DNA of 43,582 nucleotides from the NCBI GenBank assembly GCA_018897155.1, contig JAHILE010000017.1:1-43582 (forward strand), written 5' to 3'. The stretch is from Nanoarchaeota archaeon (GTDB lineage: Archaea > EX4484-52 > LFW-46). Shown piece by piece: positions 13,934 through 32,556 of this stretch (its first letter is position 1; the number at the start of each line of letters is the position of its first letter). Below the pieces are notes generated by a model. That model did no database searches and was not told where the DNA came from. It saw only the letters and a program-made list of their open reading frames with translations. The position numbers and the translations under genes were made by a program.

Positions 13934-14043
13934 GTTTTTGAAATGCGGAAAAGAATCAGTACTTGATAATGATTTGTATCGGCAATGCTAAGAGCAATGT
14001 TTTATATACTATGAGACAATATAAGAAGACGGGGGGGTTATCG

Positions 14044-15852: not shown

Positions 15853-16793
15853 TGGTTAAAGTAAAAGATTATTTTGATTTAAATTATGGTGTTAATTTAG
15901 AATTCTCCAATATGGAAGAAGATTCTAATGGCATTCCATTTGTAGCCAGAACCGAAAAAAACAATGGTGTTGTTGGCAAAGTCAAATTAATTGAAGGAAT
16001 AAATCCAAATCCGGCAAATACGATTTCAGTTTCTTGTGGTGGTTCTGTAATGGCGAGTTTTTTACAAGAAGAACCGTACTATAGTGGGTTTCACATACTA
16101 TACCTAACACCAAAAATAAAATTAAATGAAAGAGAATTATTGTATTATTGTATGTGTCTAAAACAAAATGCCTGGAAATATTCATATGGAAGGCAAGCAA
16201 ATAAAACTTTAAAAGATTTAGAAATTCCATCCAAGGAAGAAATTCCTACTTGGGCGTATTCATTAAAAGTCAATGAATTGAAAAAAGAACCAATTATCTC
16301 TAAAAAAATTGAATTAGATGTTAAAAATTGGAAAAATTTTAAGATTATCGATTTATTTGAAATTAAGAAGGGTGAAAGATTAGTAAAAGAAGAAAGAATA
16401 GAAGGAATGATTCCATTAATCACCGCAACTTCTGAAAATAATGGTGTTGTAGATTATATCTCTTATGATGACTTTAAGGATAATAAAAAGATTTTTAGAG
16501 ATAAAGTAACTATTGATATGTTTTTTAATGTATTTTATCATAATTATGGCTATTTTAGTGATGACAATGTTCATACCCTAATTCCGAAAAATATTTCTCT
16601 CAATAAATATGTTTGCCTGTTTTTGGCAACAACTCTAAAGAAACTTCATTACAAATATGATTTCGGCAGGCAGGCAAGATTACAAAGATTAGATTTCGAT
16701 GAAATCAAATTACCCGTAGATAAAAAAGGAACTCCTGATTGGCAAGTTATGGAAGAGTATATAAAATCATTGAATTACAGCTCAAATTTATAG
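15852..16793 (+). CDS. R-M specificity subunit (HsdS/BcgIB-like)
   Basis: 313 residues built as two half-repeats. Half 1 contains IPFVARTEKNNGVVGKV and ends YGRQANKTLKDLEIPSK; half 2 contains IPLITATSENNGVVDYI and ends FGRQARLQRLDFDEIKLP. Each half is a target-recognition domain plus a spacer helix, as in HsdS and BcgIB. It should read a bipartite DNA site for the fused nuclease-methylase. Its ATG overlaps the TAA of the A subunit by one base, so the two are translationally coupled. It is as AT-rich as its partner. Confidence 0.88.
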   Translation: MVKVKDYFDLNYGVNLEFSNMEEDSNGIPFVARTEKNNGVVGKVKLIEGINPNPANTISVSCGGSVMASFLQEEPYYSGFHILYLTPKIKLNERELLYYCMCLKQNAWKYSYGRQANKTLKDLEIPSKEEIPTWAYSLKVNELKKEPIISKKIELDVKNWKNFKIIDLFEIKKGERLVKEERIEGMIPLITATSENNGVVDYISYDDFKDNKKIFRDKVTIDMFFNVFYHNYGYFSDDNVHTLIPKNISLNKYVCLFLATTLKKLHYKYDFGRQARLQRLDFDEIKLPVDKKGTPDWQVMEEYIKSLNYSSNL

Positions 16794-18260: not shown

Positions 18261-19211
18261 TTATCTCATCCCCGCAAATCTGCCGTAGGTATAACCATAT
18301 CCGGAACATCCCGAAGCACAAGGATAATTTGTATATGGCTGGCATCTTGTTGGTCTAAAACCTGCCCAGCTCCAATCCCAAATAATCCCATATTGATTTG
18401 GAGCGCTATTTTCAGCAATACAACGTCCTACACCTGTTCCGTAGCCGATGTTAAAATTACATTGAGTACCCCATGTATCCGTGCATTTTACTGCTTGTTG
18501 CACTACACATCCACTAAGAAGATTATTGTTCGTAATCCAATCCTTACATGATTGTCCAAGCGCTCCGCAACTGCCGCCAATTCCGGCCCATCCTCCATAA
18601 ACCCAATCATCAGTAACACCATTACAGTCCTGATCAAGCCCATCTGCGGCGCACGTATATGCAGTTGAGCCAGGATAGCATGTTGCGCAGGCATCGTTAC
18701 AGTCGTCTTTGGGCCATGGACCTCCCGGGCATGTTTGAATTGGTGAATGATTATCGCCATCCACATCAGTAGTGTTGATGAGCCACGCAGTTATGTTGTT
18801 ATCACAATAATCGGTGATTTGACCGTTGCATTTGTTGTTTGCACGGCCATCCCCATCAATATCAACCCAGCAAGAGTTCAAGAATGTTCCGTCCGGAAAA
18901 ATTATGCCGTTTCCAGCCCCGATAGATATATTTCCGGAAACCGTCAGCCTTTTGTTTGAAGGCGCCACCCCGATTCCGACGTTTCCGCTGGATGAAACAT
19001 TTATCGGGCCGTCAATGTAAGTGGAATTAAATTCTCCAGATGGCATTGTTATGCCAATGTTTCCGTCAATGTCGAATGAAAATTCTGATAATGGATGCCA
19101 TTGCAGCGGCACTGCAGATGCGTAGTTTATAGCCACTTCAATAGCTAGAACAGCAAAGAGAATAAGAATGTGCGCTGCATATTTTTTTTGAATGTTGATT
19201 ATAAATTTCAT
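18261..19211 (-). CDS. Secreted surface protein with GNVGIG and MopE-like motifs
   Basis: 316 residues. An uncleaved signal or N-terminal anchor covers residues about 10-33. Residues 37-112 are the segment shared with the 116-residue neighbour, containing SSGNVGIGVAPSNKRLTVSG, a pattern typical of phage tail-fibre and S74-chaperone-type repeats. Residues about 115-205 hold MopE-like Asp/Cys clusters (DIDGDGRANNKC and DVDGDNHSPI...DDCNDACATC...DGLDQDCNGVTDD), which in other proteins bind Ca or Cu. The C-terminal 110 residues are Cys/Trp/Gly-rich. GGGAG lies upstream of ATG 19211. Second gene of a three-gene operon. Confidence 0.82.
   Translation of the reverse strand: MKFIINIQKKYAAHILILFAVLAIEVAINYASAVPLQWHPLSEFSFDIDGNIGITMPSGEFNSTYIDGPINVSSSGNVGIGVAPSNKRLTVSGNISIGAGNGIIFPDGTFLNSCWVDIDGDGRANNKCNGQITDYCDNNITAWLINTTDVDGDNHSPIQTCPGGPWPKDDCNDACATCYPGSTAYTCAADGLDQDCNGVTDDWVYGGWAGIGGSCGALGQSCKDWITNNNLLSGCVVQQAVKCTDTWGTQCNFNIGYGTGVGRCIAENSAPNQYGIIWDWSWAGFRPTRCQPYTNYPCASGCSGYGYTYGRFAGMR
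18925..19015. repeat. 91-bp exact direct repeat, copy 1
   Basis: Identical over 91 bases to 19298-19388, in the same orientation. It encodes the GPINVSSSGNVGIGV...SGNISI segment of the 316-residue protein. Flanking codons differ, which implies recent duplication or gene conversion. Confidence 0.95.
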
Positions 19212-19230
19212 CAGATCTCCCGGTGCTTTA

Positions 19231-19581
19231 TTAGCATTTCGTTTTCATAAACGTTCCGTCCGGGAAAATTATGCCGTTTTCAGTTCCTCCTACTATGGAT
19301 ATATTTCCGGAAACCGTCAGCCTTTTGTTTGAAGGCGCCACCCCGATTCCGACGTTTCCGCTGGATGAAACATTTATCGGGCCGTCAAGATAACTTGAAT
19401 TAAATTTCCCGGATTTCGTTGTTATATTGATGGTTCCAGCATTATCTAGCGTGACTTCTGATATTGGATGCCATTTTACAAGGGCGGCAACATAATTGCC
19501 TGACATGCTCACTACAAGAACCGAAAGAAAAACTATGAGCACGATTGCTGTGTTTTCAGAAATATTGATAGTGATTTGCAT
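19231..19581 (-). CDS. Short paralogue of the GNVGIG surface protein
   Basis: 116 residues. A hydrophobic N-terminal anchor (TAIVLIVFLSVLVVSMSGNYVAAL) is followed by the same module as residues 37-112 of the 316-residue protein, including the exact SSSGNVGIGVAPSNKRLTVS segment. It stops at FMKTKC just where the neighbour continues FLNSCWVDIDGDG. It thus looks like a copy truncated before the MopE-like part, or a minimal fibre-base protein. First gene of the operon; a TATA tract near 19598-19610 lies about 24 bases before ATG 19581. Confidence 0.8.
   Translation of the reverse strand: MQITINISENTAIVLIVFLSVLVVSMSGNYVAALVKWHPISEVTLDNAGTINITTKSGKFNSSYLDGPINVSSSGNVGIGVAPSNKRLTVSGNISIVGGTENGIIFPDGTFMKTKC
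19298..19388. repeat. 91-bp exact direct repeat, copy 2
   Basis: Identical to 18925-19015; the copy lies in the 116-residue paralogue. Confidence 0.95.
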
Positions 19582-19658: not shown

Positions 19659-20657
19659 ATGGGCTTTACAAACACATCTATGAAAAAAAGCATTTTTCTC
19701 TTATTTATATTTTTGGTCTTGGCCATTATTTTAACAACGCCTACTTATGCGGCAAATAATATTGATTGCAGCTTTTCTTATTCTACTACCAATCCTGATT
19801 GTCCGGGCCCTCAAATACTTCTTTTTAAAGGAATATCGGATGCCAATTCACATGCCGGCGTAAATACGTCCGATATATCAGAATATCCGTGGAAAGTTTG
19901 CTGTAAACTTACCGGCGGAGGCAATTTAAGAGTTATGAATTATAGTTATGCTAATCGGGGTAGTTGCACTTCTCCGACAATGGGTGGTGTAATTTCCATC
20001 AGCAGAAACGATAATGCGCATGTGGCTGATTATGGCCAAGGATTAAATTATCAAAACAACTTATGCCTCTCTTCAACAAGCGGAAACATAAGCTGCGTTT
20101 ATCAAAATGGCGGCGGCAGCACATGCACGGGTAGCGGATATAAATGCATTGCTTCAATTACTGATGATATTAATGCGCATGTTGGAAAGTGCGGCCGGCA
20201 TGATAGAAAGATCTGCTGCAAATTTAGTCAAGGATATTTGCCACCTCTTGCAGGCGATCTGGATATGGGTGTTGGAGAAACAGGCATGTTTGTTTTTAAC
20301 ATAACAAACACTCTTTCAGATTCAGACATATATACAATAGATTTGTCCGGCTCTCCATCAAAAATCGGCTATTGGTCATGGTTTAACGGACACCGTTATG
20401 ATGACGAAAAAAATAATATGTCAGTTACCTTAAAGCCCGGAGAAACAGCGGCTTTTGCAGTTCTTGTTTTTGGAGGCGAGGTGGGGAGCGGAACTATTAG
20501 CGTAAATATAAAATCCGCTTCAACAGGAGAAACCAGACAACTTACAAAAAGCGTAGTCATACGATTTGCCAATGACGGCATATTTACAGACGTTCCTGAG
20601 TTTGGCTGGCTGTGGTATATCATAATCGGTATTGTCGCAGCAATTATTTTGATCTAA
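19659..20657 (+). CDS. Surface protein with NxH...CC repeats and PEFGWL C-terminal anchor
   Basis: 332 residues. The signal peptide is about residues 8-32 (KKSIFLLFIFLVLAIIL...TYAA). Residues 55-190 contain three copies of a repeat with N-[SA]-H and a following Cys or Cys-Cys: SDANSHAG...WKVCCK, RNDNAHVA...NNLC, and DDINAHVG...RKICCK. Residues about 197-310 are an Ig-like domain (IGYWSWF, LKPGETAAFAVLVFGGEV). The protein ends VPEFGWLWYIIIGIVAAIILI, a membrane helix with no basic tail. The Ig-plus-PEFGWL unit is shared with the 776-residue protein at 30195. The 3' end overlaps the convergent radical SAM gene by 14 bases. Confidence 0.82.
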   Translation: MGFTNTSMKKSIFLLFIFLVLAIILTTPTYAANNIDCSFSYSTTNPDCPGPQILLFKGISDANSHAGVNTSDISEYPWKVCCKLTGGGNLRVMNYSYANRGSCTSPTMGGVISISRNDNAHVADYGQGLNYQNNLCLSSTSGNISCVYQNGGGSTCTGSGYKCIASITDDINAHVGKCGRHDRKICCKFSQGYLPPLAGDLDMGVGETGMFVFNITNTLSDSDIYTIDLSGSPSKIGYWSWFNGHRYDDEKNNMSVTLKPGETAAFAVLVFGGEVGSGTISVNIKSASTGETRQLTKSVVIRFANDGIFTDVPEFGWLWYIIIGIVAAIILI

Positions 20658-21708
20658 TATTAAGCGGCTCAAATTCAATGTCAAACCCTTCTGCAGTCGG
20701 GAGCTCAAGAACAATAGCTGATTTAAAGCCTTTTTTTGCGGCAATGCGCGCATTTTTTTCTGAAGTTTCGATGCGCTTCATTTCAGTTCGTTCGAACATC
20801 TCGTTTTTCGGCAGAAAATCAAGTTCTTTAATATCCGCAAATATAACTCCTTTTTTCAAGAGACTTTCTTCAGTTATTGTTTCAAACGGCTTTTTTATGC
20901 TTTCTGCCCTGCGCCGTATTCTGTTCGTGTACTGGTAGACGTCTTTTAGCATTGAGGGACAGAAATGCACGCTTAATTGTTTGCAATTATTTGCTGCGAA
21001 TGAAAGAATTTTTTGCGCAAGCTCTCTACTGCCTTTTGCCTGCCTGAGAGCTCCGTCTGCGATAATAAAGCCGCGTTTTTGCATTGCATCGTATTGATTC
21101 TCCGAGAACTCGAACTCGTTAAGATTAAGGAATTTGACGCCAACACGGTCAAGAAATAAAACCATCTTCTTTAGGACTTCAAATGTTCCGGGTATGCAGG
21201 GTATTTCAACTCCGACATCGAAATTTCGTTTTAGGGCGGGCTCAAGAACTTTCCAGTTATTTTCATTCTCTATGTCGAGATGAAATCGTATTTCGTCAAG
21301 CCCTGCGTTTTGGAGCTCTTGGAGAACTTGTTCGGTCATCCCGATTCCCGAGGTATAAAGATGTATATGGAACTCTTTGCCGAATGTCTTTTTTAGAAGC
21401 GTAATATAATGCATCGTTTTCTTGACAGTTGCGGGAAGAAGCGGCTCGCCGCCGGTAATTCCTGCGCCTTTTGCAGTGCAGAGCCTTGCTTCGTTCAGCA
21501 CGTCTTCATCGCAGTTTACCGGCTGCTCGTTTGCCCATGCAGAATCGACAGCCTTTCTTTTTTCAGACAGCGTGCAGTAGAAGCAGTCGCGCGGGCATAA
21601 TCCGGAAATAAAAAGCACGAGTTTTTCGCCTGTGATGCAAAGCTTGCAGCCTTCGGGCATTTCGCCTACAAGGATTGATTTTGCGGGAGTGATCCTAATT
21701 TTGCGCAT
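20644..21708 (-). CDS. Radical SAM protein (COG2108, NifB-related)
   Basis: 354 residues. The 4Fe-4S site is C-P-R-D-C-F-Y-C (CxxxCxxC) near residue 38, followed by GITGGEPLL, the SAM-binding GGEP motif, and LYTSGIGMTEQ. An extra Cys pair upstream (EGCKLC) could bind another cluster. The ending and the HLDIENENNW segment match an archaeal radical SAM group of unknown reaction. Cytosolic. A TATA box (ACTATATATT, minus) is about 27 bases before ATG 21708. It is not adjacent to an obvious substrate partner. Confidence 0.86.
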   Translation of the reverse strand: MRKIRITPAKSILVGEMPEGCKLCITGEKLVLFISGLCPRDCFYCTLSEKRKAVDSAWANEQPVNCDEDVLNEARLCTAKGAGITGGEPLLPATVKKTMHYITLLKKTFGKEFHIHLYTSGIGMTEQVLQELQNAGLDEIRFHLDIENENNWKVLEPALKRNFDVGVEIPCIPGTFEVLKKMVLFLDRVGVKFLNLNEFEFSENQYDAMQKRGFIIADGALRQAKGSRELAQKILSFAANNCKQLSVHFCPSMLKDVYQYTNRIRRRAESIKKPFETITEESLLKKGVIFADIKELDFLPKNEMFERTEMKRIETSEKNARIAAKKGFKSAIVLELPTAEGFDIEFEPLNIRSK

Positions 21709-21746
21709 ATCTTAAGGTATGATTGGAAATAATATATAGTTTGATT

Positions 21747-22247
21747 CTAGTGTTTTGTAGCGGTTGAGGTTCTAAGGATGTTCGTAGCCCAGTATTTCGC
21801 TTTTTTCGCGCATGATTCTTTGTCGTTTTTCAGAGGCTCGAAGAAATCTATTTCCCCGATTATCTCGTTTCCCGGAAGCGCTTTGCGCATGTCGCCAAAC
21901 GTGTCTTTTTTTCCGCCGCCATGGCAGATAAAAAGCGCGATTTTTTTGTTCTTGAGTTCAGTTTCATGGAAAAAAGTATTGAAAGGCGCAGAATATGAAA
22001 AAGCCCAGACAGGCGTGCCGATGAAAATCATGTCGTAGTCTTTCGGGTCTTTGTCAAACGGAAGGAGTGCGGGCTTCTCGCGCATAACGACCTGCCCCCC
22101 ACCCTATAAAAATCTCATAAATCCTTTTGATTTTATTTCCTTTTTTGGCTTTATTTCAAGAATATCCGCGCCGACAGCTTTCGCAATACGGTTTGCGATG
22201 AATTTGGTGTTGCCTTCAAGAGAATAGAAAACGACGAGTTTTTTCAT
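21747..22247 (-). pseudogene. Flavodoxin gene interrupted by one in-frame TAG
   Basis: Reading from ATG 22247, the N-terminal 47 residues (KKLVVFYSLEGNTKFIANRI, the FMN phosphate loop) are followed by TAG at 22104-22106. Then, in the same frame, GGGQVVMREKPALLPFDKDP and FIGTPVWAFSYSAPFNTFF follow to the natural end. Flavodoxins of this group normally have Trp where the TAG stands (K-G-F-M-x-x-x-W-G-G), so a single TGG to TAG change explains it. No frameshift is present. It may be a fresh pseudogene, an assembly error, or a readthrough case. A TATA-like ATTATAATG is about 24 bases before ATG 22247. Confidence 0.85.
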
Positions 22248-22270
22248 AAGAATCAACCATTGATAGGGCA

Positions 22271-22498
22271 TTATAATAATTTTTCGAATTCTTCGCGCTT
22301 CAAACCTGCCTGACGAATTATCTCAATCAAAGTTCCCGTATCTATTTCCTTGTGGTTTGGAACAACCAACGCTTTTCTAGGGTTCGCATCCATCTTTTCA
22401 AGAATTATGTGGCTGCCTTTCTGTCGTACGGGTTCAAAGCCCATTTTTTTCAGAATTTTAACTAAATCACGCCCTGACAGAACAGGTAATTTTGTCAT
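22271..22498 (-). CDS. hicA: HicA-family mRNA interferase toxin
   Basis: 75 residues from ATG 22498: LPVLSGRDLVKILKKMGFEP, RQKGSHIILEK, VVPNHKEIDTGTLIEIIRQAG. The double-stranded-RNA-binding-like fold and catalytic His in QKGSHIIL are the mark of HicA (YcfA) toxins, which cleave mRNA. The start overlaps the end of hicB by 32 bases. Order is hicB then hicA, so antitoxin is made first, as is common in archaea. It directly precedes the flavodoxin pseudogene. Confidence 0.92.
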   Translation of the reverse strand: MTKLPVLSGRDLVKILKKMGFEPVRQKGSHIILEKMDANPRKALVVPNHKEIDTGTLIEIIRQAGLKREEFEKLL

Positions 22499-22712
22499 CG
22501 GTAGACACCTCAAAGCGTGCAATAAGCGTATCTTCATTCTTTAGTTCTTCAGGAATACCCATTTCTTCAATATACAGTTCAACGGCTTCTTTCAGGTTTT
22601 TTAATGCCTCTTCTATCGTATATCCCTGACTGACAACATCAATTTCCGGGCAAAGCGCAACATATTGCTTTTCACCTTTTTTAATAATCGCTGTAAGTTC
22701 CATTTTAATCAC
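22467..22712 (-). CDS. hicB: HicB-family antitoxin
   Basis: 81 residues from GTG 22712 (or 78 from ATG 22703). The partial RNase-H-like HicB fold is clear: LTAIIKKGEKQYVALCPEID, SQGYTIEEALKNLKEAVELY, EEMGIPEEL. It lacks a separate DNA-binding domain at its C-terminus, so autoregulation may be through another surface. A TTTAAAAAC box is about 26 bases before the GTG, favouring a leaderless GTG start. It neutralises HicA encoded downstream. Confidence 0.9.
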   Translation of the reverse strand: MIKMELTAIIKKGEKQYVALCPEIDVVSQGYTIEEALKNLKEAVELYIEEMGIPEELKNEDTLIARFEVSTDDKITCSVRA

Positions 22713-22753
22713 GAATATTTATTGGGTGGCTGAGTTTTTAAAGGCAAATTAAG

Positions 22754-23236
22754 TTATTTCAAGATTCCAACAATCCAATCATCATTTATATTTCTCATAC
22801 TCACTATTTTAAGATGGTATTTTTTATTCACATATGCTTCCATTTTTTTCATTTCTTCAGATTTTTTCTCTTCATTCCCTTCAGGCGCCCTTAACAAAAA
22901 TAAACACATATCTACTTTTACGTCTTTTTTTCTATAGTATAGTATGCCGTCTCTTATCCATTCCAAAGTGGGCGTAAATTCATTTTTGCATTTAAGCTCG
23001 ATTAATTTAGGCGTTTCATTATCCATAAAGTTTATCGATAAATCCGGTCCCTTATTATGTGGTATCTCTACTTTGTATTTCGAAAGCGCAGCAATCACCT
23101 CAACTTTAAACCATCCCTCAAATCCTATTTTCTGTCCTTCATAAGTTTTCAAAGCGATTAATGACTCCGCCTTAATTTTTATCCGCTCTGCCACATCATC
23201 TAAAATACTTTTTTCCATAAAAATATCAGTTTCCAT
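22754..23236 (-). CDS. PD-(D/E)XK nuclease-like protein
   Basis: 160 residues. The nuclease signature is visible in order: E in GFEGWFKVEVIAAL, then NKGPDLSINF, then LIELKCKNEF (D...E-x-K). The rest includes GILYYRKKDVKVDMCLFLL and a Lys/Glu helix. Such stand-alone domains act as restriction or repair nucleases; the target is unknown and no methyltransferase or ATPase neighbours it. A TATA box (TTTATATTG, minus) about 27 bases upstream supports the ATG at 23236 over a second ATG at 23218. It sits beside hicBA in what looks like a small defence or stress cluster. Confidence 0.72.
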   Translation of the reverse strand: METDIFMEKSILDDVAERIKIKAESLIALKTYEGQKIGFEGWFKVEVIAALSKYKVEIPHNKGPDLSINFMDNETPKLIELKCKNEFTPTLEWIRDGILYYRKKDVKVDMCLFLLRAPEGNEEKKSEEMKKMEAYVNKKYHLKIVSMRNINDDWIVGILK

Positions 23237-23296
23237 ATTTTCTATATTGCAAGATTATCAATATAAACCTTCTTCCCTAAAAAAACTCGTGATTAA

Positions 23297-24592
23297 ATGC
23301 CGTACGAAGTCATGAAAATCCAAGAGATTTCCAAGCCTTCGAAACCGAGTTTCGAAGTGAAAGATATTTCTTTGGCAGAACAAGGGAAAAAACAGATAGA
23401 ATGGGCTGAAGTGCAGATGGTCGGCCTGATGAAAATCCGCGCGCGTTTCAAAAAGGAAAAGCCGCTTGCGGGCGTCAAAATCGGAATGGCGCTTCACGTC
23501 ACAAAAGAGACCGCAGTTCTTGTGCGCACTTTGCTTGACGGGGGCGCAGAAGTCGCAATTACAGGATGCAACCCTCTCTCAACGCAGGATGATGTTGCAG
23601 CAGCTCTTGCAAAAGACGGCGTCAATGTCTATGCAAAACGCGGCGTAAATAAGGAGGATTATTACCGTTTCATACATACTATAATGGACTTTGAGCCGAA
23701 CATAACAATTGATGACGGCTGCGATTTAGTTTCTGAAATTCATACCAAAAGGCCCGAACTCATCAAAAACATTATTGCAGGCGCTGAGGAAACAACAACC
23801 GGAGTAATTCGTTTGCATGCAATGGTGCGCGACGGAGCTTTGAAATACCCGATGATTGCTGTCAACGACTCGAACACAAAGCATCTTGTTGACAACTATT
23901 ACGGAACCGGGCAGAGCACCCTTGACGGAATAATTCGCGCGACAAACGTATTTATCGGCGGAAAGAATTTCGTTGTCGCAGGATATGGACCTTGCGGAAA
24001 GGGCGTTGCCCTGAAAGCATGCGGGATGGGTGCTCATGTAATAGTCACTGAAGTCGATGCATTCCGCGCGCTACAGGCGCATTTTGACGGCTACAGAGTC
24101 ATGCCTATGGCAGAAGCCGCAAAAATCGGCGATATATTCGTGACGCTTACAGGCGATAAAAACGTCATCGACATACACCACATGAAAGCCATGAAAACCG
24201 GCGCAATACTTGCGAACTCAGGGCACTTTGACGCTGAAATCAACCTGAAAGAGCTTTCAAAAATCGCGCAGAAACGAAATATTCGCGCGAATATGGATGA
24301 ATATTCGTTTGACGGCAAGAAAATATTCATTCTTGGTGAAGGCCGCCTCGTAAATCTCGCTGCAGCAGAAGGCCATCCGTCGCTTGTAATGTCGTTTTCA
24401 TTCTGCGACCAGGCTCTTGCATGCGAGTACGCAGTCAAGAACAAAGGCAAGCTGAATATTGCAGTGCATAAACTGCCGGATGAAGTCGACGACAATGTCG
24501 CAAAGATTCATCTTGAAGCAATGGGAATTCATTTCGATGTTCTTACAGAAGAGCAGAAGAAATACCTTGCGAGCTGGGAAGAGGGAACTTAG
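23297..24592 (+). CDS. ahcY: Adenosylhomocysteinase
   Basis: 431 residues, full length for the archaeal enzyme. It hydrolyses S-adenosylhomocysteine to adenosine and homocysteine, recycling the product of methylation. Signatures: AEVQMVGLMKIRARF, GAEVAITGCNPLSTQDDVAAAL, EETTTGVIRL, NDSNTKHLVDNYYGTGQST and the NAD site VVAGYGPCGKGVALKACGMG. The bacterial-type insert is absent. It shares a short AT-rich gap with the divergent nuclease-like gene; ATATAAACC lies about 35 bases before ATG. Confidence 0.97.
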   Translation: MPYEVMKIQEISKPSKPSFEVKDISLAEQGKKQIEWAEVQMVGLMKIRARFKKEKPLAGVKIGMALHVTKETAVLVRTLLDGGAEVAITGCNPLSTQDDVAAALAKDGVNVYAKRGVNKEDYYRFIHTIMDFEPNITIDDGCDLVSEIHTKRPELIKNIIAGAEETTTGVIRLHAMVRDGALKYPMIAVNDSNTKHLVDNYYGTGQSTLDGIIRATNVFIGGKNFVVAGYGPCGKGVALKACGMGAHVIVTEVDAFRALQAHFDGYRVMPMAEAAKIGDIFVTLTGDKNVIDIHHMKAMKTGAILANSGHFDAEINLKELSKIAQKRNIRANMDEYSFDGKKIFILGEGRLVNLAAAEGHPSLVMSFSFCDQALACEYAVKNKGKLNIAVHKLPDEVDDNVAKIHLEAMGIHFDVLTEEQKKYLASWEEGT

Positions 24593-24641
24593 AGTTTCAG
24601 CATAAACAGCAAAATATAAGTATTACTGCTAATTAATGCTT

Positions 24642-25379
24642 ATGAATGCTGTCAATTTACCGGAAAGGCTGGTAGTAATAAGACAGCCTTATTCGATACA
24701 AAATGCAGCATTAGATTTGCTAAAGGTTATACCAATCAGCCTATTAGCACAGATAACTTAGAATTACTCTATGAATATATTTTATTAAACCTGGATATTA
24801 GAGACCCGTAATCGGAACTTGACACGATTAAAGGATTGGCTGCTATTCCTGACGCGGATGTATTTGTAACCGACTTTGGCATGTGGCAAGGCACAGAAAC
24901 CGGAAAATATTTAGCAAAAAAATCTCGTTTTGATTTCTGCTTCTCTCCAAAAAAATATACGCACTCTTCAACTGGAAGGTGCAATTAGTTCTCAATTGGA
25001 ATATGATTTAAAGACTGTTATAGACGAACGGTTAGGAGAAAAGAACTTCGGAATTTTTTACGGCTTAACAGATAAGGAAATTAAAAAAAGAAACCTCCTC
25101 GAATATCGCCGATGGAGTGCTGAGGGAAGATACAGATATCGACCACCGGAAGGAGAAAGTTATATCGATGTCAGGGCAAGAATCGAGGGCTTCATGAAGG
25201 ACAAAGGACAAGATTGGAATGGAAAAAATGTTCTTGTAATTACGCATCAAGTTCCATATAAAATGTTCAGAGCCATAATTGAGGGCTTAGATGAAGAGGC
25301 TGTGTTAAACTTACCACATACGCCTAACTGCGGGATTCAAGAATATCAGCTTCGTGGAGGTAAACTGGAGTTATCATAA
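24642..25379 (+). pseudogene. Decayed histidine phosphatase (phosphoglycerate-mutase family)
   Basis: The start reads MNAVNLPERLVVIRQPYSIQ, where family members have R-H-G: catalytic His is lost. A frameshift near 24720-24725 moves reading to KGYTNQPISTDNLELLYEYI, then TAA at about 24810 (after IRDP), then SELDTIKGLAAIPDADVFVT. A second frameshift in an A-run near 24950 leads to NIRTLQLEGAISSQLEYDLK and on to ITHQVPYK, the second His motif, ending at 25379. Four lesions make this a clear pseudogene. The C-terminal 149 residues (from about 24930) remain open, but lack the active-site half. TATA AAATATAAG is 26 bases before ATG. Confidence 0.88.
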
Positions 25380-25556
25380 TATGACACTGTAGCTTACAAA
25401 CCCAAAGAGTACTTACCATTTGAGGATGTTTGATTAATCGTAAGGGTCAGAAAAAGTCATAAAGAAAACATCCAGAACGGTTTTTATGACAGCGAGCCGG
25501 GAAGAAGGGAATTAACTGCTAAAGGACCCCCGGGATATGGTGAGCTCCGAAGTTGA
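25380..25556 (+). pseudogene. Second histidine-phosphatase remnant
   Basis: Directly after the first pseudogene and in its final frame, the sequence reads YDTVAYKPKEYLPFEDV, stop (25431-25433), then LIVRVRKSHKENIQNGFYDS and EPGRRELTAKG to TGA at 25554-25556. The part after the stop resembles the N-terminus of a second histidine phosphatase (IVR...SHKEN...LTAKG, compare R-H-G-E-N...LT-x-x-G). Nothing further of it remains before the next gene. The resemblance is by eye and short. Confidence 0.5.
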
Positions 25557-25568
25557 AATAAGTGAAAC

Positions 25569-25769
25569 TTATTTCGCAAAAACCTTATACAACGGCCTTA
25601 TTGCTGCGAGCACAAATATAACTGCATACCAATGCCATTCCAAACTCAGCAGCGGCGCCCAAAGCTTTGCAGCCATAAGGGCAAAACTGAAAACGCTGAT
25701 TTTTGTCAGCGAAATATCTGCCCAGTCGAATTTTCGTATTTTTGAAGTCATCCAATCAGTTAGATTCAT
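25569..25769 (-). CDS. Small conserved-looking membrane protein (66 aa)
   Basis: 66 residues from ATG 25769: a short amphipathic N-terminus (MNLTDWMTSKIRKFDWADIS) and two hydrophobic segments (KISVFSFALMAAKLW, WHWYAVIFVLAAIRPLYKVF). I have seen similar small proteins in archaea and candidate-phylum bacteria, but no function is known. ACTATATTTT about 22 bases upstream serves as TATA box. It is transcribed towards the phosphatase remnants. Confidence 0.7.
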   Translation of the reverse strand: MNLTDWMTSKIRKFDWADISLTKISVFSFALMAAKLWAPLLSLEWHWYAVIFVLAAIRPLYKVFAK

Positions 25770-25859
25770 AGCAATCACACTCTAAAATATAGTATGTGCT
25801 GGATGTGTGTATATATATATGTTAATATATATGTGTGTTAAATCCTAAAAAACATCCAG

Positions 25860-27011
25860 TCATATCTTTTTCTGCACATCATATATCGCATCCATAAGCC
25901 CTTCAGCATCTTTCATATCCTGTTCCATGAGGCTTATCTGCCCTTTTTTCAGGTTTGCCTCTGCGCTTGCTATGCACTCTTCAGCCACTTTTAAATACTG
26001 CGCGTATTCATTTGCACTTTTTCCATCAAGAATGCTTCCGATTCTTTTTGATTTTGAAAGGAAAAGGCGGGATTTTTCGAACCACAAGCGATACTTTTCA
26101 GAATCATCCTGTTTTGGATTTGCTGTTGTCTGAATAGAAGCGGCAATATTAGCGGAATCTTTCTTTTCCACAACAGTCTCTGTTTTTTGAACCGGTGCAT
26201 CAGCAGTAAGCGCCTTGTTTTCTGCAATGGCTTGCCGAGTTATTACTGACGCACCTTTGGATATACTACCCGTATTTGATGCAGTTTGCACAGGCGCTCT
26301 AATTAATGTGTTCTTGCCTTCCGGAATAATGTTGCGCTTGACAGGAGGATTTGATGGAAGTGCAGAAACATTGTATTTTTGCACTACACCGGAAATTGCG
26401 GCATTTTTTTCGCCTAAAGAAGGCGTTTTATTTTTTGAATATTGTTCATATGCTTTTACAATGGCAAAGATAATGATCGCTAAAATAGGAATTGCAAGAA
26501 TATACTTGATATAGTTCGTCTTATTTTCAACATTGCTATTGCTTTCGTTAACTGCTGGTTTTTCAGTAACTTCTGTGATTCCAGTTTCAGTTATTTCCCC
26601 CTCACATGAGGGAACAACGGACCACCCCATAGGCACAGCACAAGGTGATGAAAATTCCCCGCATTCATTTGTTTCAATATTTCTTGCCGCAGTTGAAATA
26701 TTCGGACACGAAGAATATGTTTGATTTTGCGATAGGTCTATCGATTCTGCATAGACTTCTGTAGCAAAAGAATCGATGATATCAATAGATACCGCTTTAC
26801 TTACATCGTAAGATATTCTCAAAATATCTCCGGATATATGCGGCGTTATGGCAAAGTTTTTATATTCTGCGCCATTTTCCAGAAATTCGGAAAGATACAA
26901 GACAATCGGCTTTGAGCTTTGGGATATTTTTACCGGCTGAGAATCCACGAGAATCGATAGCGCTACGATGAAGAGAATTGTAAAACATAATGCAATCATC
27001 GGCTTTTTCAT
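25860..27011 (-). CDS. Bitopic membrane protein with long disordered tail
   Basis: 383 residues from ATG 27011. The first helix (MIALCFTILFIVALSILV) is a signal or anchor. An extracytoplasmic domain of about 140 residues with six Cys follows, then a second membrane helix (YIKYILAIPILAIIIFAIVK, about 175-194). A Lys/Ala/Pro/Thr-rich low-complexity stretch of about 110 residues comes next, and an acidic helical C-terminus (ECIASAEANLKKGQISLMEQ). No family recognised. It lies at the edge of the second surface-protein block, and a structural or signalling link across the membrane is possible. Confidence 0.7.
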   Translation of the reverse strand: MKKPMIALCFTILFIVALSILVDSQPVKISQSSKPIVLYLSEFLENGAEYKNFAITPHISGDILRISYDVSKAVSIDIIDSFATEVYAESIDLSQNQTYSSCPNISTAARNIETNECGEFSSPCAVPMGWSVVPSCEGEITETGITEVTEKPAVNESNSNVENKTNYIKYILAIPILAIIIFAIVKAYEQYSKNKTPSLGEKNAAISGVVQKYNVSALPSNPPVKRNIIPEGKNTLIRAPVQTASNTGSISKGASVITRQAIAENKALTADAPVQKTETVVEKKDSANIAASIQTTANPKQDDSEKYRLWFEKSRLFLSKSKRIGSILDGKSANEYAQYLKVAEECIASAEANLKKGQISLMEQDMKDAEGLMDAIYDVQKKI

Positions 27012-27086
27012 ATAGAACCAGCTCTGATATTTCGCAAGCAAGTGTTTTACAGTATATTTATTTCTTGATTATATAAACATTCTTAA

Positions 27087-27401
27087 TCAAGAAGAGCCTC
27101 TAATCCGGAAAACCATGGCGTACTTAATTCCGCACATTTCTTTAACCGAGCATTCCTTAAGCGCGCCCATCTTCACAAGCTCTGCAATAATGCGGTTTCC
27201 GATGATGCTCGAGGTATTTGCGCTTTTTATAGAATCCGCAATTTCTTTGATTTTTTCCGGCGGCATTTTTTCTCCGCCGAAAAAATCCGCATCAACATCA
27301 AGGACGCGCTCATTTTCTTCAAAAATTTTGCCGAGAATGCCTGAGTCGCAGATTGCGCAGACTGTTTTGTTGTCGGATTCATGGATTTTTAGAAAGAACA
27401 T
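27087..27401 (-). CDS. DUF424 family protein
   Basis: 104 residues. FFLKIHESDNKTVCAICDSG, LGKIFEENERVLDVDADFFGG and a C-terminal CGIKYAMVFRIRG match the archaeal DUF424 family (PF04242), a small universal-like archaeal protein of unknown role often found near translation genes. A CTTTTAAGG element (minus CCTTAAAAG) is about 27 bases before ATG 27401, fitting a leaderless transcript. Confidence 0.88.
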   Translation of the reverse strand: MFFLKIHESDNKTVCAICDSGILGKIFEENERVLDVDADFFGGEKMPPEKIKEIADSIKSANTSSIIGNRIIAELVKMGALKECSVKEMCGIKYAMVFRIRGSS

Positions 27402-27452
27402 GCATTATTGATGGTGTTTGTTGCTTTTAAGGCTTTTCCAGAGTCACGCGCT

Positions 27453-30185
27453 TCAATACATGATATACGGTATTATAGAAGTGCGGCATCGCGCTTCTTT
27501 GCCGCATCTGGATATGTTGTAATACGATTCATTTGTTGTGTCAATAATTAATTTGTAATCTGTTCCAAGCCGGATATTGAATTTATTTTTTAATCCGATT
27601 GCAATAGTTATGTATTTATTCTTTATTTTGGCCCATTCAAAGAAATCTTCCTTGTTTAATCCGTATATATATTCGTCAGATGTGTTTTTTATCTTGATTT
27701 CGTAAGTGCCGTTTACTGGCGCGCTTATATTTGTTTCTAATATTGATAAGCCGGGCACGGTTCTGTTTGCGATAACTACTTTGCCGTTTGCGCCATACGC
27801 CCACCAACAACAACCCGTGCACGATGTGCAATAATATGTTGCAGCTCCGCTTACATCAAAAATATATGTGGGCGCTAAATAACCGGAATCTGAAAACAGT
27901 CCTATAAAGCCGCCGTTGCCGGGACGACCACACCATCCATCCCAACCATCATCGGAATCATGTCTGCCGTTAGCGCCACGTTCAGTTATCGGACCGATTA
28001 TGTAATTATCCGCATATAGTTTAGTTGAGCCTCCGGGTCCACCACTCATTCCGCCATTTGCAGTAACAGCGCCTAATGTTAAATTATCCGCAGCTATTTT
28101 TAAATTACCTCCTGAAGTGCCCCAGCAATCATCACCCGCGCTATTGGCACCATTCAGATTGATGTTTCCAATAATTGCTTTTTTCTTTGATTTGATTATA
28201 ACCGAACCGCCGGAGCCCACTCCGCTGCTATACCAACCGTTATAACTGATGTCCGTATATGTTTCCCCCTTAGATGAAATTGGGCCTATTTTTGTAATAT
28301 TGCCAGTAACTATAATTGTACCCCCACGGCCGTACAATCCCACACCATCGTCCGCATTTATCGTACCGATATCTATCATATCTCCGGTTAGTATGATCGG
28401 GCCGCCACTATTTGAATGGCAAGCAGTACCACAACTCGAACAGCCCCAACCCAATCTGCAGTATGCGCCATAAGTATACAAAGAGGTTGCTTTTATCATT
28501 TTGGCCTCTATCGTAATTGATTTGCCTGATCCGTCGCTCATTGAAGAAATTCCGGATGCGTAAATATTCTTTGCAGAAAAATTGCCTTTTGCATGGAAAA
28601 CGAGGTTATTGGTGAGTGTTATATCATTCGTAATATTTATATCAAACCATCCGGCTTCATTTATATCATATATGATTTTATCTCCAATTTCCTGTGTCTC
28701 AAAATCATCATAAAACTCGGAAATAATGGTACCGCTCATGTCTTTTTTGATTATATTCACATTATCCAGCCATGCGCCATTGCTTGTAAACGCAATCCAT
28801 TTTATTGCCGGAAGCGCTCCAGAAACGCCGATGATTGATGAAACTTCCGGATAGCCGTCTCCGATTATTTTTAAAGCCATTGTATTGGCAGATTCATCAA
28901 AAACAAAAGAAAAGTTATACCACGTTTTATTCTTTATGTCTGCCACAACAGTGTTCCAGCCAGTACTATTAAATAACGAAACTTTCAGATTGTTCGCATC
29001 AAAATTATTTATCCGGACAGAAACCAATGTGTTCGAATCGTCTTTCAGCAAAGCGTATGTTGTGTCTGTGGTTATGGAATCAAAATATATTGAAAAATTG
29101 CTTATAACAATATTGCTGTTGGATCCGTTTTGGTAAGCTACACCGCTTCTCATATAGTATGCTTTTGTTATCGGCAAATCGTTAGTCTCCTGAATCCGCA
29201 TATTGCCTGTTGCAACCCAGTGAACTTTTTTTGTGCAATAATACGCGGGCATTTGCGGGAAGTATTGGCAGTTTGCCGTTATATTATTAATTGAAGATAT
29301 AATCAGGCTATCTCCAATCCCGTCGCAGTTGTCGTCTTTGCGGTTGCCGGGTATTTCGGCACGCCCGGGATTTACATTTGGGTCGCTGTCATCGCAGTCA
29401 TTTCCCATTGTGCAGGCATCAGTGTAATATCCGTCGCCGTCATTGTCGCTTCCCTGTGTAACGTTTTCCTCATACCAGTAAATTGTGTAGTTGAATTTAT
29501 TGAGGTTCTGGGCACTCATATCGAGCAGATTATTTCCGAGCTGAAGGCTTCCGGGCACAAAAGTTAAAGGAGACCATGCCGGCTTTGATTGGTTTATGAG
29601 GATTGATATAACTGAAGTGTCGTTTATCATGCCGACATAATTATAGGTTGTTCCGTTTATGATTATTCTCGGATTTATTGTGCACGGAGCGTATTGAGTA
29701 TTTATATCGCAGTTGAACGTATTGCATCCTCCGACACTGCAGCTCGTATTATGCCCTCCTAAAATAGTTGCTGATTCTGCAATTATCGAGCCGCTGCAGT
29801 TGGCTTTGAGCGGCGTATTATTTAAAAGTGTGCTGTTAGTATTTGAGCATATTTCAGTTATTGTATCATTCAGCCACGCGGTGCAATTGCCTATCGAGCA
29901 AGTGCCTTCTACAGAAACGTTTGCATAGTGCTGTATTAATTTTCCAAAATTCGAGTACGCCGAATTAGTCGGGCCGCAGCCATATATTATTGAATTTGTT
30001 CCTTCGCAGATTCCTTTGACAATCATTACAAGGCCAATCGGCGGGCAGTTCCCGCCTATCGATACTGTCGGAGACGCACCGCTAAAAGTGCCTGAAGAAT
30101 ATTTTATTTCTTGAGAGACTGCTGCATGCGCAGAAGAGCTAATGATTGCCAAAGTTATAAAACATGCAATAAAGAGGTATTTCAT
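27453..30185 (-). CDS. Giant secreted protein: MopE motif, lectin-like and beta-helix domains
   Basis: 910 residues. The signal peptide is about 1-21 (cleavage near SSAHA-AV). Residues 50-240 are Cys- and Asn-rich. Residues 247-292 are a MopE-like motif (SDNDGDGYYTDACTMGNDCD, then NPGRAEI, DDNCDGIGD). About 351-475 look like a LamG/concanavalin-type lectin domain (SNFSIYF, WYNFSFVFDESANTMALKI). About 555-770 are repeating GG-x-I-x-I...IGxI units of a right-handed beta-helix. No C-terminal anchor is visible. Stop codon is followed by the DUF424 gene. It starts 10 bases after the stop of the 776-residue gene: one operon, likely extracellular adhesin or sheath. Confidence 0.82.
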   Translation of the reverse strand: MKYLFIACFITLAIISSSAHAAVSQEIKYSSGTFSGASPTVSIGGNCPPIGLVMIVKGICEGTNSIIYGCGPTNSAYSNFGKLIQHYANVSVEGTCSIGNCTAWLNDTITEICSNTNSTLLNNTPLKANCSGSIIAESATILGGHNTSCSVGGCNTFNCDINTQYAPCTINPRIIINGTTYNYVGMINDTSVISILINQSKPAWSPLTFVPGSLQLGNNLLDMSAQNLNKFNYTIYWYEENVTQGSDNDGDGYYTDACTMGNDCDDSDPNVNPGRAEIPGNRKDDNCDGIGDSLIISSINNITANCQYFPQMPAYYCTKKVHWVATGNMRIQETNDLPITKAYYMRSGVAYQNGSNSNIVISNFSIYFDSITTDTTYALLKDDSNTLVSVRINNFDANNLKVSLFNSTGWNTVVADIKNKTWYNFSFVFDESANTMALKIIGDGYPEVSSIIGVSGALPAIKWIAFTSNGAWLDNVNIIKKDMSGTIISEFYDDFETQEIGDKIIYDINEAGWFDINITNDITLTNNLVFHAKGNFSAKNIYASGISSMSDGSGKSITIEAKMIKATSLYTYGAYCRLGWGCSSCGTACHSNSGGPIILTGDMIDIGTINADDGVGLYGRGGTIIVTGNITKIGPISSKGETYTDISYNGWYSSGVGSGGSVIIKSKKKAIIGNINLNGANSAGDDCWGTSGGNLKIAADNLTLGAVTANGGMSGGPGGSTKLYADNYIIGPITERGANGRHDSDDGWDGWCGRPGNGGFIGLFSDSGYLAPTYIFDVSGAATYYCTSCTGCCWWAYGANGKVVIANRTVPGLSILETNISAPVNGTYEIKIKNTSDEYIYGLNKEDFFEWAKIKNKYITIAIGLKNKFNIRLGTDYKLIIDTTNESYYNISRCGKEARCRTSIIPYIMY

Positions 30186-30194
30186 AATAGATCC

Positions 30195-32525
30195 CTATAA
30201 TAACATAAGCGCACCTAAAAGTGCAATTGATGCAAAGCCGAGCCATCCGAATTCGGGCGTTTGCGCAGTTAGCCCGTCTTCTGAGTAGACTATGCTGACA
30301 TCAAAAATAACGCTTTTTGCAACTCCTTTGTCCGATGATTCTGCTGTAAGGTTTATTCTTCCGCCTGAAAGCACCTCGCCGCCGAATACATTAATCGATA
30401 CAACTTTTTCTTCCCCGGGCAGGAGCGAAATTGATGTTTTTTGGCGGTTGGTTTCTTTTTTCCCTGTAAACCATATCCAATAATCTATTTTTGGAGGCAG
30501 TCCAAAAACTGAAAACTCCATAATATCGCTTGTGCTTTGCAGATTTTTTATGTTGGCAGTTGCCTGCCCTTCCTCTCCGAGCAATACAACAATTTTTTGA
30601 TCATTTGCCAATATAGCGAACGGCTGGGAGGTATATATTTTCAATACTGCTGTTTTTACCAGCTCAATATTTCCGGCACCGTCTTCTGAATAATATTCAA
30701 TCGTATGTATTCCATTTCCCACTATTAAAAATGGCAGATAATAATTAGTCCATGTGCCGTTATCAAGCTTGTATTTTGGCGAGCATCCCGATGACGGTTC
30801 CGGATCTACACAGGTTAGTGTTGCAATAACATTTGTCAAATACCACCCCTTTGCATTTGGAGCCGGCGGATTGAATGTAATTGTAGTAACCGGCGGCTCT
30901 TGGTCCGCACATGCTTCTATATTCGTGCAATTGCAGCCGAGCGCAGTTGCACAATCAGGATCATCACAGTCAATAAGGCAATCGTGATCGTTGTCTTTTC
31001 CATCCATGCAGTTGAAACTTAATTGATCCACATACAATTTTGTATTAGTTAATTCCGGAGGCTCTATGAAATTATATATTATTTGGTATGAGTTGTCTGT
31101 TTCTTTTGTTCCTGCGTTGCACTGCAGCCCGCCGTCGACGCAGGTTTCGGCGCAATTCTGCAAGCCGTCAGTGCATGAGGCGGGGTTAAATCCCAATCCG
31201 GTTGTCTGGCATGAATAAATGCAGCCATATTCTTCATAAGAGCAGCTTACAAGCCCGAGGCAGATGCTTGTGCCGCAATAATACTGGCATTTGTTTACCC
31301 CTATTGGGCCGCAATCATCTTTTCCATAACTTGGCTGGGTATAGCATGTCCCGGTATAAAGAATTTGGCATGGCTCTCCGCATACGTCTGTGCTCGGCTC
31401 TCCGCAGTTTTGTATTCCATCCTGGCAATAGTCGCATTTGTCGCAGTATAATGCGGAGTTTTTATCCGCAGTTGTGCATACATTTTCGCATCCTGTTTCT
31501 GTGCATATCTCCTGGGCCGTGCATGTGTAATATCCTCCGGCAGTACAGCAGGGTGTTTCTCCTATCTGTGGATTGTGGGATGTGCATTGCGGTGCATTTC
31601 TGCATCCTATTGGTGCTGTTTCGCAGCACACAAACTGCTGATTTGCGTAGCTGGGAGGACATCCGCTTGAGCATATGTTGAATGTGGTTGACCACCATGT
31701 GCATCCCACGGGTGTCGGAGCAGGAGTATATGGATCAGATGGGCCTGTTGTGCACACACCGTTATAGCAGAATTCACTTGACGAGCAGGCGATTGTTTCT
31801 GACGCACATGTCTGGATTGCTGAACCGGAACAGTAAAACTCATTAACAGAACCACTGCTTGCGCACGTGTCAGTGCATCCGCCGCTGGCTGCATCGCATA
31901 CTCCATTAGCTGTGTCTCTGCACGTTGCTTTATAATATACATTTATTCCATTATCATCGTCAGAGCATATTGAGCATGAGGGATCTGACAGGCATTGGTA
32001 TGTTCCAGATAATTGGCATTTTGTTCCGGGAAATTTTACACAACATGCGTCTACGGCAGTATCAATTATTGTGTCGCCGTCTTGGTCGCAGCCTATTGGT
32101 GGGGGGGTTTTGCATTTATGCGTACCTATATCGCAGGTATCTGGACTTGTGCAATCCGCATTAGTTAAACATTCAACACACGTTACAGTAGCGCCGTCGT
32201 CATAGCATCGGGGCGTTGGAGATGTACATGGAGTTGTTTTTTTGCACTGGGCTTGCTGTAACAAATAGAGCCGCAGTATACATAAATCAGGTGCTTTGTA
32301 CTCTGCAATTGAGTTAGCTTCGCATTTTATATCATTTTCACAATCCGAACAATATCCGATAAGATTTTTGCATAAATCTGATGAGCAGCAATCAGTTATA
32401 TACGTATATCCTGAGTCGCAATCGTCTTGTGTGCAGAGCGGAAAACAGTCATCTGCAGTTACATTATCAGAAGAAAAATGAAAAACCGCAAGAAACAAAA
32501 ATACAAAAAGAATTTTTGATTTCAT
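30195..32525 (-). CDS. Cysteine-rich surface protein with PEFGWL C-terminal anchor
   Basis: 776 residues from ATG 32525. The signal peptide is about 1-24. Residues 25-540 hold almost all of about 74 cysteines, in EGF- or disintegrin-like spacing (for example CVECLTNADCTSPDTCDIGT), ending with a MopE-like DGKDNDHDCLIDCDDPDC. An Ig-like domain covers about 545-635 (PPVTTITF...YYSEDGAGN). A second Ig-like domain of about 640-750 and the end TPEFGWLGFASIALLGALML are the same module as in the protein at 19659. Many disulfides suggest a rigid exported stalk held by its C-terminus in the membrane. First gene of the operon with the 910-residue protein. Confidence 0.82.
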   Translation of the reverse strand: MKSKILFVFLFLAVFHFSSDNVTADDCFPLCTQDDCDSGYTYITDCCSSDLCKNLIGYCSDCENDIKCEANSIAEYKAPDLCILRLYLLQQAQCKKTTPCTSPTPRCYDDGATVTCVECLTNADCTSPDTCDIGTHKCKTPPPIGCDQDGDTIIDTAVDACCVKFPGTKCQLSGTYQCLSDPSCSICSDDDNGINVYYKATCRDTANGVCDAASGGCTDTCASSGSVNEFYCSGSAIQTCASETIACSSSEFCYNGVCTTGPSDPYTPAPTPVGCTWWSTTFNICSSGCPPSYANQQFVCCETAPIGCRNAPQCTSHNPQIGETPCCTAGGYYTCTAQEICTETGCENVCTTADKNSALYCDKCDYCQDGIQNCGEPSTDVCGEPCQILYTGTCYTQPSYGKDDCGPIGVNKCQYYCGTSICLGLVSCSYEEYGCIYSCQTTGLGFNPASCTDGLQNCAETCVDGGLQCNAGTKETDNSYQIIYNFIEPPELTNTKLYVDQLSFNCMDGKDNDHDCLIDCDDPDCATALGCNCTNIEACADQEPPVTTITFNPPAPNAKGWYLTNVIATLTCVDPEPSSGCSPKYKLDNGTWTNYYLPFLIVGNGIHTIEYYSEDGAGNIELVKTAVLKIYTSQPFAILANDQKIVVLLGEEGQATANIKNLQSTSDIMEFSVFGLPPKIDYWIWFTGKKETNRQKTSISLLPGEEKVVSINVFGGEVLSGGRINLTAESSDKGVAKSVIFDVSIVYSEDGLTAQTPEFGWLGFASIALLGALMLL

Positions 32526-32556
32526 AACCCGCCACAATAATTATATGCGCAAATAA

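Follow-up and report, generated by a model that had tools for sequence, protein, structure and literature searches.

A candidate archaeosortase/CTERM pair with an obligate Ig-like spacer in the EX4484-52 group of DPANN archaea

Introduction

The S-layer glycoprotein of Haloferax volcanii ends in a PGF-CTERM signal, a short P-G motif followed by a hydrophobic helix and basic residues, and is processed by archaeosortase A (ArtA). This membrane enzyme, whose active-site Cys is conserved, has been shown to remove the helix and transfer the protein to a lipid (PMC7157517). Archaeosortase C (ArtC) is the published partner of PEF-CTERM (PMC5244752).

Here, we compare with these systems a C-terminal module encoded twice in a 43,582-nucleotide stretch of archaeal DNA (the window; positions 1 to 43,582 of contig JAHILE010000017.1, assembly GCA_018897155.1). 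Copies of the module have the general layout of a CTERM signal, namely a short conserved motif and a hydrophobic helix at the extreme C-terminus. Most relatives of the module resemble PGF-CTERM in possessing a P-G motif, a helix, and basic residues, and the enzyme class considered below, class S, resembles archaeosortase A in being a membrane enzyme whose active-site Cys is conserved. Unlike in the archaeosortase A/PGF-CTERM system, an Ig-like domain always precedes the module tag, and in the genus of the window the tag reads PEF rather than PGF and lacks a basic tail. No archaeosortase A model was found among the NCBIfam matches of either archaeosortase of the window genome and no PGF-CTERM model among the matches listed for 58 module copies, and we therefore do not assign the module to that system. 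With PEF-CTERM, the window tag shares the letters PEF before a C-terminal helix, but it continues with GW rather than P or S, lacks a basic tail, and is tied to an obligate Ig domain. None of the named PEF-CTERM models matched the module and the module genes do not lie near the ArtC-like gene of the genome, which places the module outside PEF-CTERM as defined.

Results

Two otherwise unlike proteins share a C-terminal module

The features of the two window proteins are as follows.

19659..20657, plus strand: module protein 1, 332 aa, with a signal peptide (by eye), a Cys-containing middle, and a C-terminal Ig-plus-tag module (ORF, alignment, profile match).
20247..20654, plus strand: C-terminal module of protein 1, comprising an Ig-like domain, PEFGWL tag, and terminal helix (profile match; fold predicted for a homologous copy).
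20595..20612, plus strand: PEFGWL tag of protein 1 (sequence search).
20613..20654, plus strand: hydrophobic C-terminal stretch of protein 1 (WYIIIGIVAAIILI), without a basic tail (sequence).
30195..32525, minus strand: module protein 2, 776 aa, with a signal peptide, Cys-rich regions, an OmpL47-type domain, and a C-terminal module (ORF, alignment, domain and profile matches).
30198..30614, minus strand: C-terminal module of protein 2 (profile match; predicted fold).
30240..30257, minus strand: PEFGWL tag of protein 2 (sequence search).
30198..30239, minus strand: hydrophobic C-terminal stretch of protein 2 (GFASIALLGALMLL), without a basic tail (sequence).

The open reading frame of protein 2 spans 30195-32537, and the ATG at 32525 is the start that had been used in a sequence-only reading of this DNA. 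Both proteins begin with an N-terminal Sec-type signal peptide, read by eye (MKKSIFLLFIFLVLAIILTTPTYA in protein 1), and are unlike each other upstream of the module. Over the C-terminal ∼134 residues they align with 37% identity and 56% similarity (E 4e-28 in a pairwise alignment), and the motifs KIGYWSWF/KIDYWIWF, LKPGE/LLPGE, VFGGEV, and PEFGWL are all present, bearing out the earlier observation that two otherwise dissimilar proteins share an Ig-plus-PEFGWL tail. In both, PEFGWL lies 14 residues from the protein end and no K or R follows it, in agreement with the membrane helix lacking a basic tail that had been described for this pair.

The string PEFGW occurs only twice in the 1.43-Mb window genome (96% complete), in module proteins 1 and 2, and a two-sequence profile found no third copy of the module there. 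Across the window genome (G000) and its sister genome (G030), C-terminal PEFG-plus-helix tails are restricted to four module proteins. The orthologous pair in G030 has kept the C-terminal part, is divergent in the N-terminal part, and likewise ends without a basic tail; the DNA 3′ of module protein 1 is similar between the two genomes. The stops of the window proteins are therefore genuine, and an assembly error as the source of the absent basic tail is ruled out, as all four copies in the two genomes end alike.

Module protein 2 also contains Cys-rich repeats and, at 30636-30821, an OmpL47-type domain (NF047446, above cut-off; the model is named after a Leptospira surface protein). On the same strand, 10 bp past module protein 2, starts a 910-aa exported-looking protein (27453-30185) that has a MopE-type metal-binding motif and no C-terminal module. 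Elsewhere in the window, two neighboring minus-strand ORFs at 18261-19581 share a near-identical stretch (LDGPINVSSSGNVGIGVAPSNKRLTVSGNISI); the 316-aa ORF has a weak MopE-type motif and the 116-aa ORF looks like its truncated duplicate. Positions 13963-16793 hold type I restriction-modification genes for an N6 methylase and a specificity subunit.

Fold and distribution of the module

AlphaFold2, run on the family alignment, confidently predicts (mean pLDDT 92.5) an Ig-like sandwich that leads through a loop into a terminal helix, and Foldseek searches with the module return many Ig-like folds at low identity. In neither window protein does a Pfam or NCBIfam model exceed its cut-off over the module; the best Pfam matches across 58 module relatives are generic Ig-like families. 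Protein 1 gives a faint match in the same C-terminal region to the PACE-CTERM putative S-layer protein model (NF033506; E 0.23, 10.1 bits against a cut-off of 110), but the PACE-CTERM proteins inspected have no P-[GED] tag at their ends and are not matched by the module profile. PACE-CTERM was ruled out as the same family on the basis of this sub-threshold score and the unlike tails.

We compared the module across the EX4484-52 group of DPANN (here, the phylum), whose members carry the NCBI labels Nanohalarchaeota, Aenigmatarchaeota, or simply archaeon. The two-sequence profile detects the module in 26 of 34 phylum genomes, at 1 to 7 copies each, and a 58-row profile in 30 of 34; these are metagenome-assembled drafts, for which absence calls are soft. 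The 58-row profile also reaches other archaea, mostly small-genome lineages. No relative was found in viral contigs, and a separate search of genome contigs with the two-copy module profile gave no match. Host proteins range from 149 to 3723 aa, and every complete copy is C-terminal, ending at most about 25 residues from the stop, which answers the question raised by the sequence-only reading of whether profile matches are always C-terminal. That reading had also named mid-protein matches as evidence against a sorting signal: across the phylum the narrow profile finds C-terminal matches exclusively, whereas a broad profile also picks up generic Ig domains inside proteins.

The tag and the basic tail

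Of 70 phylum copies, 69 retain the proline immediately before the helix. This position is tied for the most conserved column of a module with a mean column identity of ∼30%, and the next residue is G (55 copies), E (8), or D (7). PEFGW is restricted to family f1 (two genomes, 4/4 copies). The tag reads PDI in f4 and SPEGSY or SPEPGF in f6, and other families have mostly PGL, PGI, or PGM in the arrangement [ST]PG[LIM]-helix-K/R. Outside f1, 65 of 66 phylum copies have at least one K or R after the helix; within f1, 0 of 4 do. PEFGWL occupies the same alignment columns as the PGL/PGI of its relatives, most of which lack ArtC. The defining tag is a phylum-wide P-[GED]-[LIMF]-helix, and PEFGWL without a basic tail is a genus-level variant of it.

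This revises the view that PEFGWL and the absent basic tail define the signal, since both are confined to f1. The wider suggestion of a new sorting or anchoring signal with a fixed Ig domain fares better: the module is C-terminal, is matched by no named CTERM model tested, and occurs in genomes with a particular type of archaeosortase. In a tree built from the Ig part alone, the tag class switches about five times, tracking taxonomic family; because the changes track family they are not separable from descent, which alone could explain them, and coevolution of tag and enzyme is not demonstrated.

The window genome encodes two archaeosortase homologs

Two archaeosortase homologs in the window genome score above the family cut-off. 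The first, class S (199 aa; contig C58, 4109-4708), exceeds the cut-offs of TIGR04178 and PF09721 and has the conserved Cys and Arg, which place it in the exosortase/archaeosortase superfamily. The nearest named enzymes are exosortase H (TIGR04177; 57.4 bits against a cut-off of 86) and pacearchaeosortase (NF033505; 42.8 bits against 80), both below the curated cut-offs, and a search for a solved-structure match to class S found none. Class S proteins are ∼200 aa long with the layout DCxGWK...NxxR...H; within the phylum the Cys, Lys, Asn, and Arg are invariant and the His is mostly conserved. The exosortase H tag is IPTLxxWG, which bears a loose likeness to PGLxWIG/PEFGWLG; a literature search for exosortase H tags found nothing relevant. 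The second homolog is an ArtC-like enzyme of 315 aa on contig C39 (L131, G000:C39; 90.1 bits against a cut-off of 100), adjoined by five tandem ordinary PEF-CTERM genes (IPE[FY]P...K/R).

Two further observations concern class S. In the enzymes of L172, L176, and L183 (G287, G320, and G253; f103) and of L336 (G226; f97), Ser replaces the catalytic Cys (DSTGWKS or DSTAWKS) while the Arg and His are kept, and in G253 and G320 the module tag also lacks its proline. A second gene lies 20 to 86 bp downstream of class S, on the same strand, in f1 and f5 (L098:4729-6723, L099:4339-5919, L102, L103, L104, L108, L110, and L113). It encodes a long coiled-coil protein of 526-1226 aa whose C-terminal end, P-[IL]-[IL]-[IVL]-[DE], is conserved and to which no Pfam family is assigned with confidence.

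Class S and the module are linked by gene adjacency and co-occurrence

In three genomes (G001, G003, and G004) class S adjoins a module gene on the same strand, 150 to 210 bp apart, whose product (173-202 aa) is little more than a signal peptide and the module; in G025, class S is one gene away from the gene for the 3723-aa module protein. This adjacency comes from two lineages only, one genus and G025. Among the 30 module-bearing phylum genomes, class S is found in 26 and the ArtC-like type in eight; two have no detected archaeosortase and two the ArtC-like type only, all four being drafts of 74 to 87% completeness. The idea that genomes with the module carry a specific archaeosortase is borne out by class S, with exceptions among incomplete drafts. 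G030, which encodes PEFGWL proteins, has class S as its only detected archaeosortase type.

Across 394 archaeal genomes, any archaeosortase is present in 66 of 76 module-positive and 158 of 318 module-negative genomes (Fisher p 1e-9, hand tally), counts that are inflated by shared ancestry and, like the other co-occurrence statistics, carry no phylogenetic correction. A signature, DCx[GA]WK, was derived from phylum sequences and then tried outside the phylum, where DCxGWK is present in 22 of 27 module-positive genomes against 5 of 38 module-negative genomes, the latter a non-random sample of mostly small genomes (p 3e-8); counted by family, the figures are 6/9 and 4/24 (p 0.01). In three of the five module-positive genomes without the signature, the site matches except that Ser stands in place of Cys, and the other two have close variants. 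Among the module-negatives, a broader profile detects a full-length module (E < 1e-3) in 3 of 6 genomes with the signature, the sixth being G226 with the Ser form, and in 5 of 32 others; the follow-up prediction of modules in signature genomes was only weakly borne out.

Discussion

We consider it probable that the shared tail is a sorting signal of the archaeosortase kind, borne on an obligate Ig-like stalk and read by class S. In this scheme, the Sec pathway would export a module protein by way of the N-terminal signal peptide read from its sequence, and the C-terminal helix would keep the exported protein temporarily in the membrane. At the membrane face, class S would recognize the P-[GED]-[LIMF] tag and cut off the helix. 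The C-terminus so formed would probably be joined to a membrane lipid, and the Ig domain would come to lie beside the membrane. Recognition, cleavage, and lipidation are here modeled on Haloferax ArtA and PGF-CTERM (PMC7157517). Known CTERM signals are defined by a basic tail, and its absence in the genus of the window counts against this scheme.

The chief alternative is a plain membrane anchor with a conserved hinge: a membrane-proximal Ig stalk is held by its uncleaved helix, as in tail-anchored S-layer proteins, and the proline marks the junction of domain and helix. By itself the helix could be enough to hold the protein, a simple anchor fits the lack of a K/R tail in the genus of the window, and a few genomes with the module have no detected archaeosortase. 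Yet a hinge would not explain a near-invariant P followed by G, E, or D in otherwise divergent proteins, and the adjacency of class S and module genes and the enrichment of DCxGWK in module genomes would be left without explanation; we regard this alternative as rather unlikely.

We give little credence to the view that the ArtC-like enzyme on C39 processes PEFGWL as a divergent form of PEF-CTERM. The letters PEF are common to both and an ArtC-like enzyme, of the kind paired with PEF-CTERM, is encoded in the genome, but that gene has five IPE[FY]P...K/R neighbors of its own, G030 combines PEFGWL proteins with class S as the only type detected, and the tag aligns with those of relatives that mostly have no ArtC. 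Because the genome has ordinary PEF-CTERM genes next to an ArtC-like enzyme of their own, PEFGWL is not demonstrably a PEF-CTERM variant.

That the resemblance comes down to a generic Ig domain and a hydrophobic end, with no common signal, is scarcely credible: although the Ig part weakly matches many Ig-like folds and broad profiles match Ig domains inside proteins, the strength of the pair alignment, the exclusively C-terminal narrow-profile matches, and the P-[GED] pair at a fixed place across the phylum refute it for EX4484-52, and with it the possibility, raised by the sequence-only reading, of an Ig domain and helix without a conserved motif.

Returning to a sorting signal read by class S, we see an even chance that the DCxGWK enzymes form an unnamed archaeosortase class with its own substrates, many to one enzyme, and with the Ig-like domain as an obligate part of the recognized unit. 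Such a class would date back to the ancestor of the EX4484-52-type phylum and occur in other DPANN lineages as well, with some members having Ser for Cys and with the tag drifting to PEFGWL without a basic tail in the genus of the window.

DPANN archaea are small and are thought to rely on contact with other cells, and how their surface proteins are anchored is little characterized. A tag and enzyme that can be read from sequence yield a list of the surface proteins of the phylum, up to 3723 aa in size, and class S and the module tag are a defined pair for a reporter test. One genome apparently contains two distinct systems, so the enzyme cannot be told from the letters PEF ahead of a helix. 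On our best reading, the module and class S are a new archaeosortase/CTERM pair in which the Ig spacer is obligate, a variant of the known anchoring of archaeal surface proteins.
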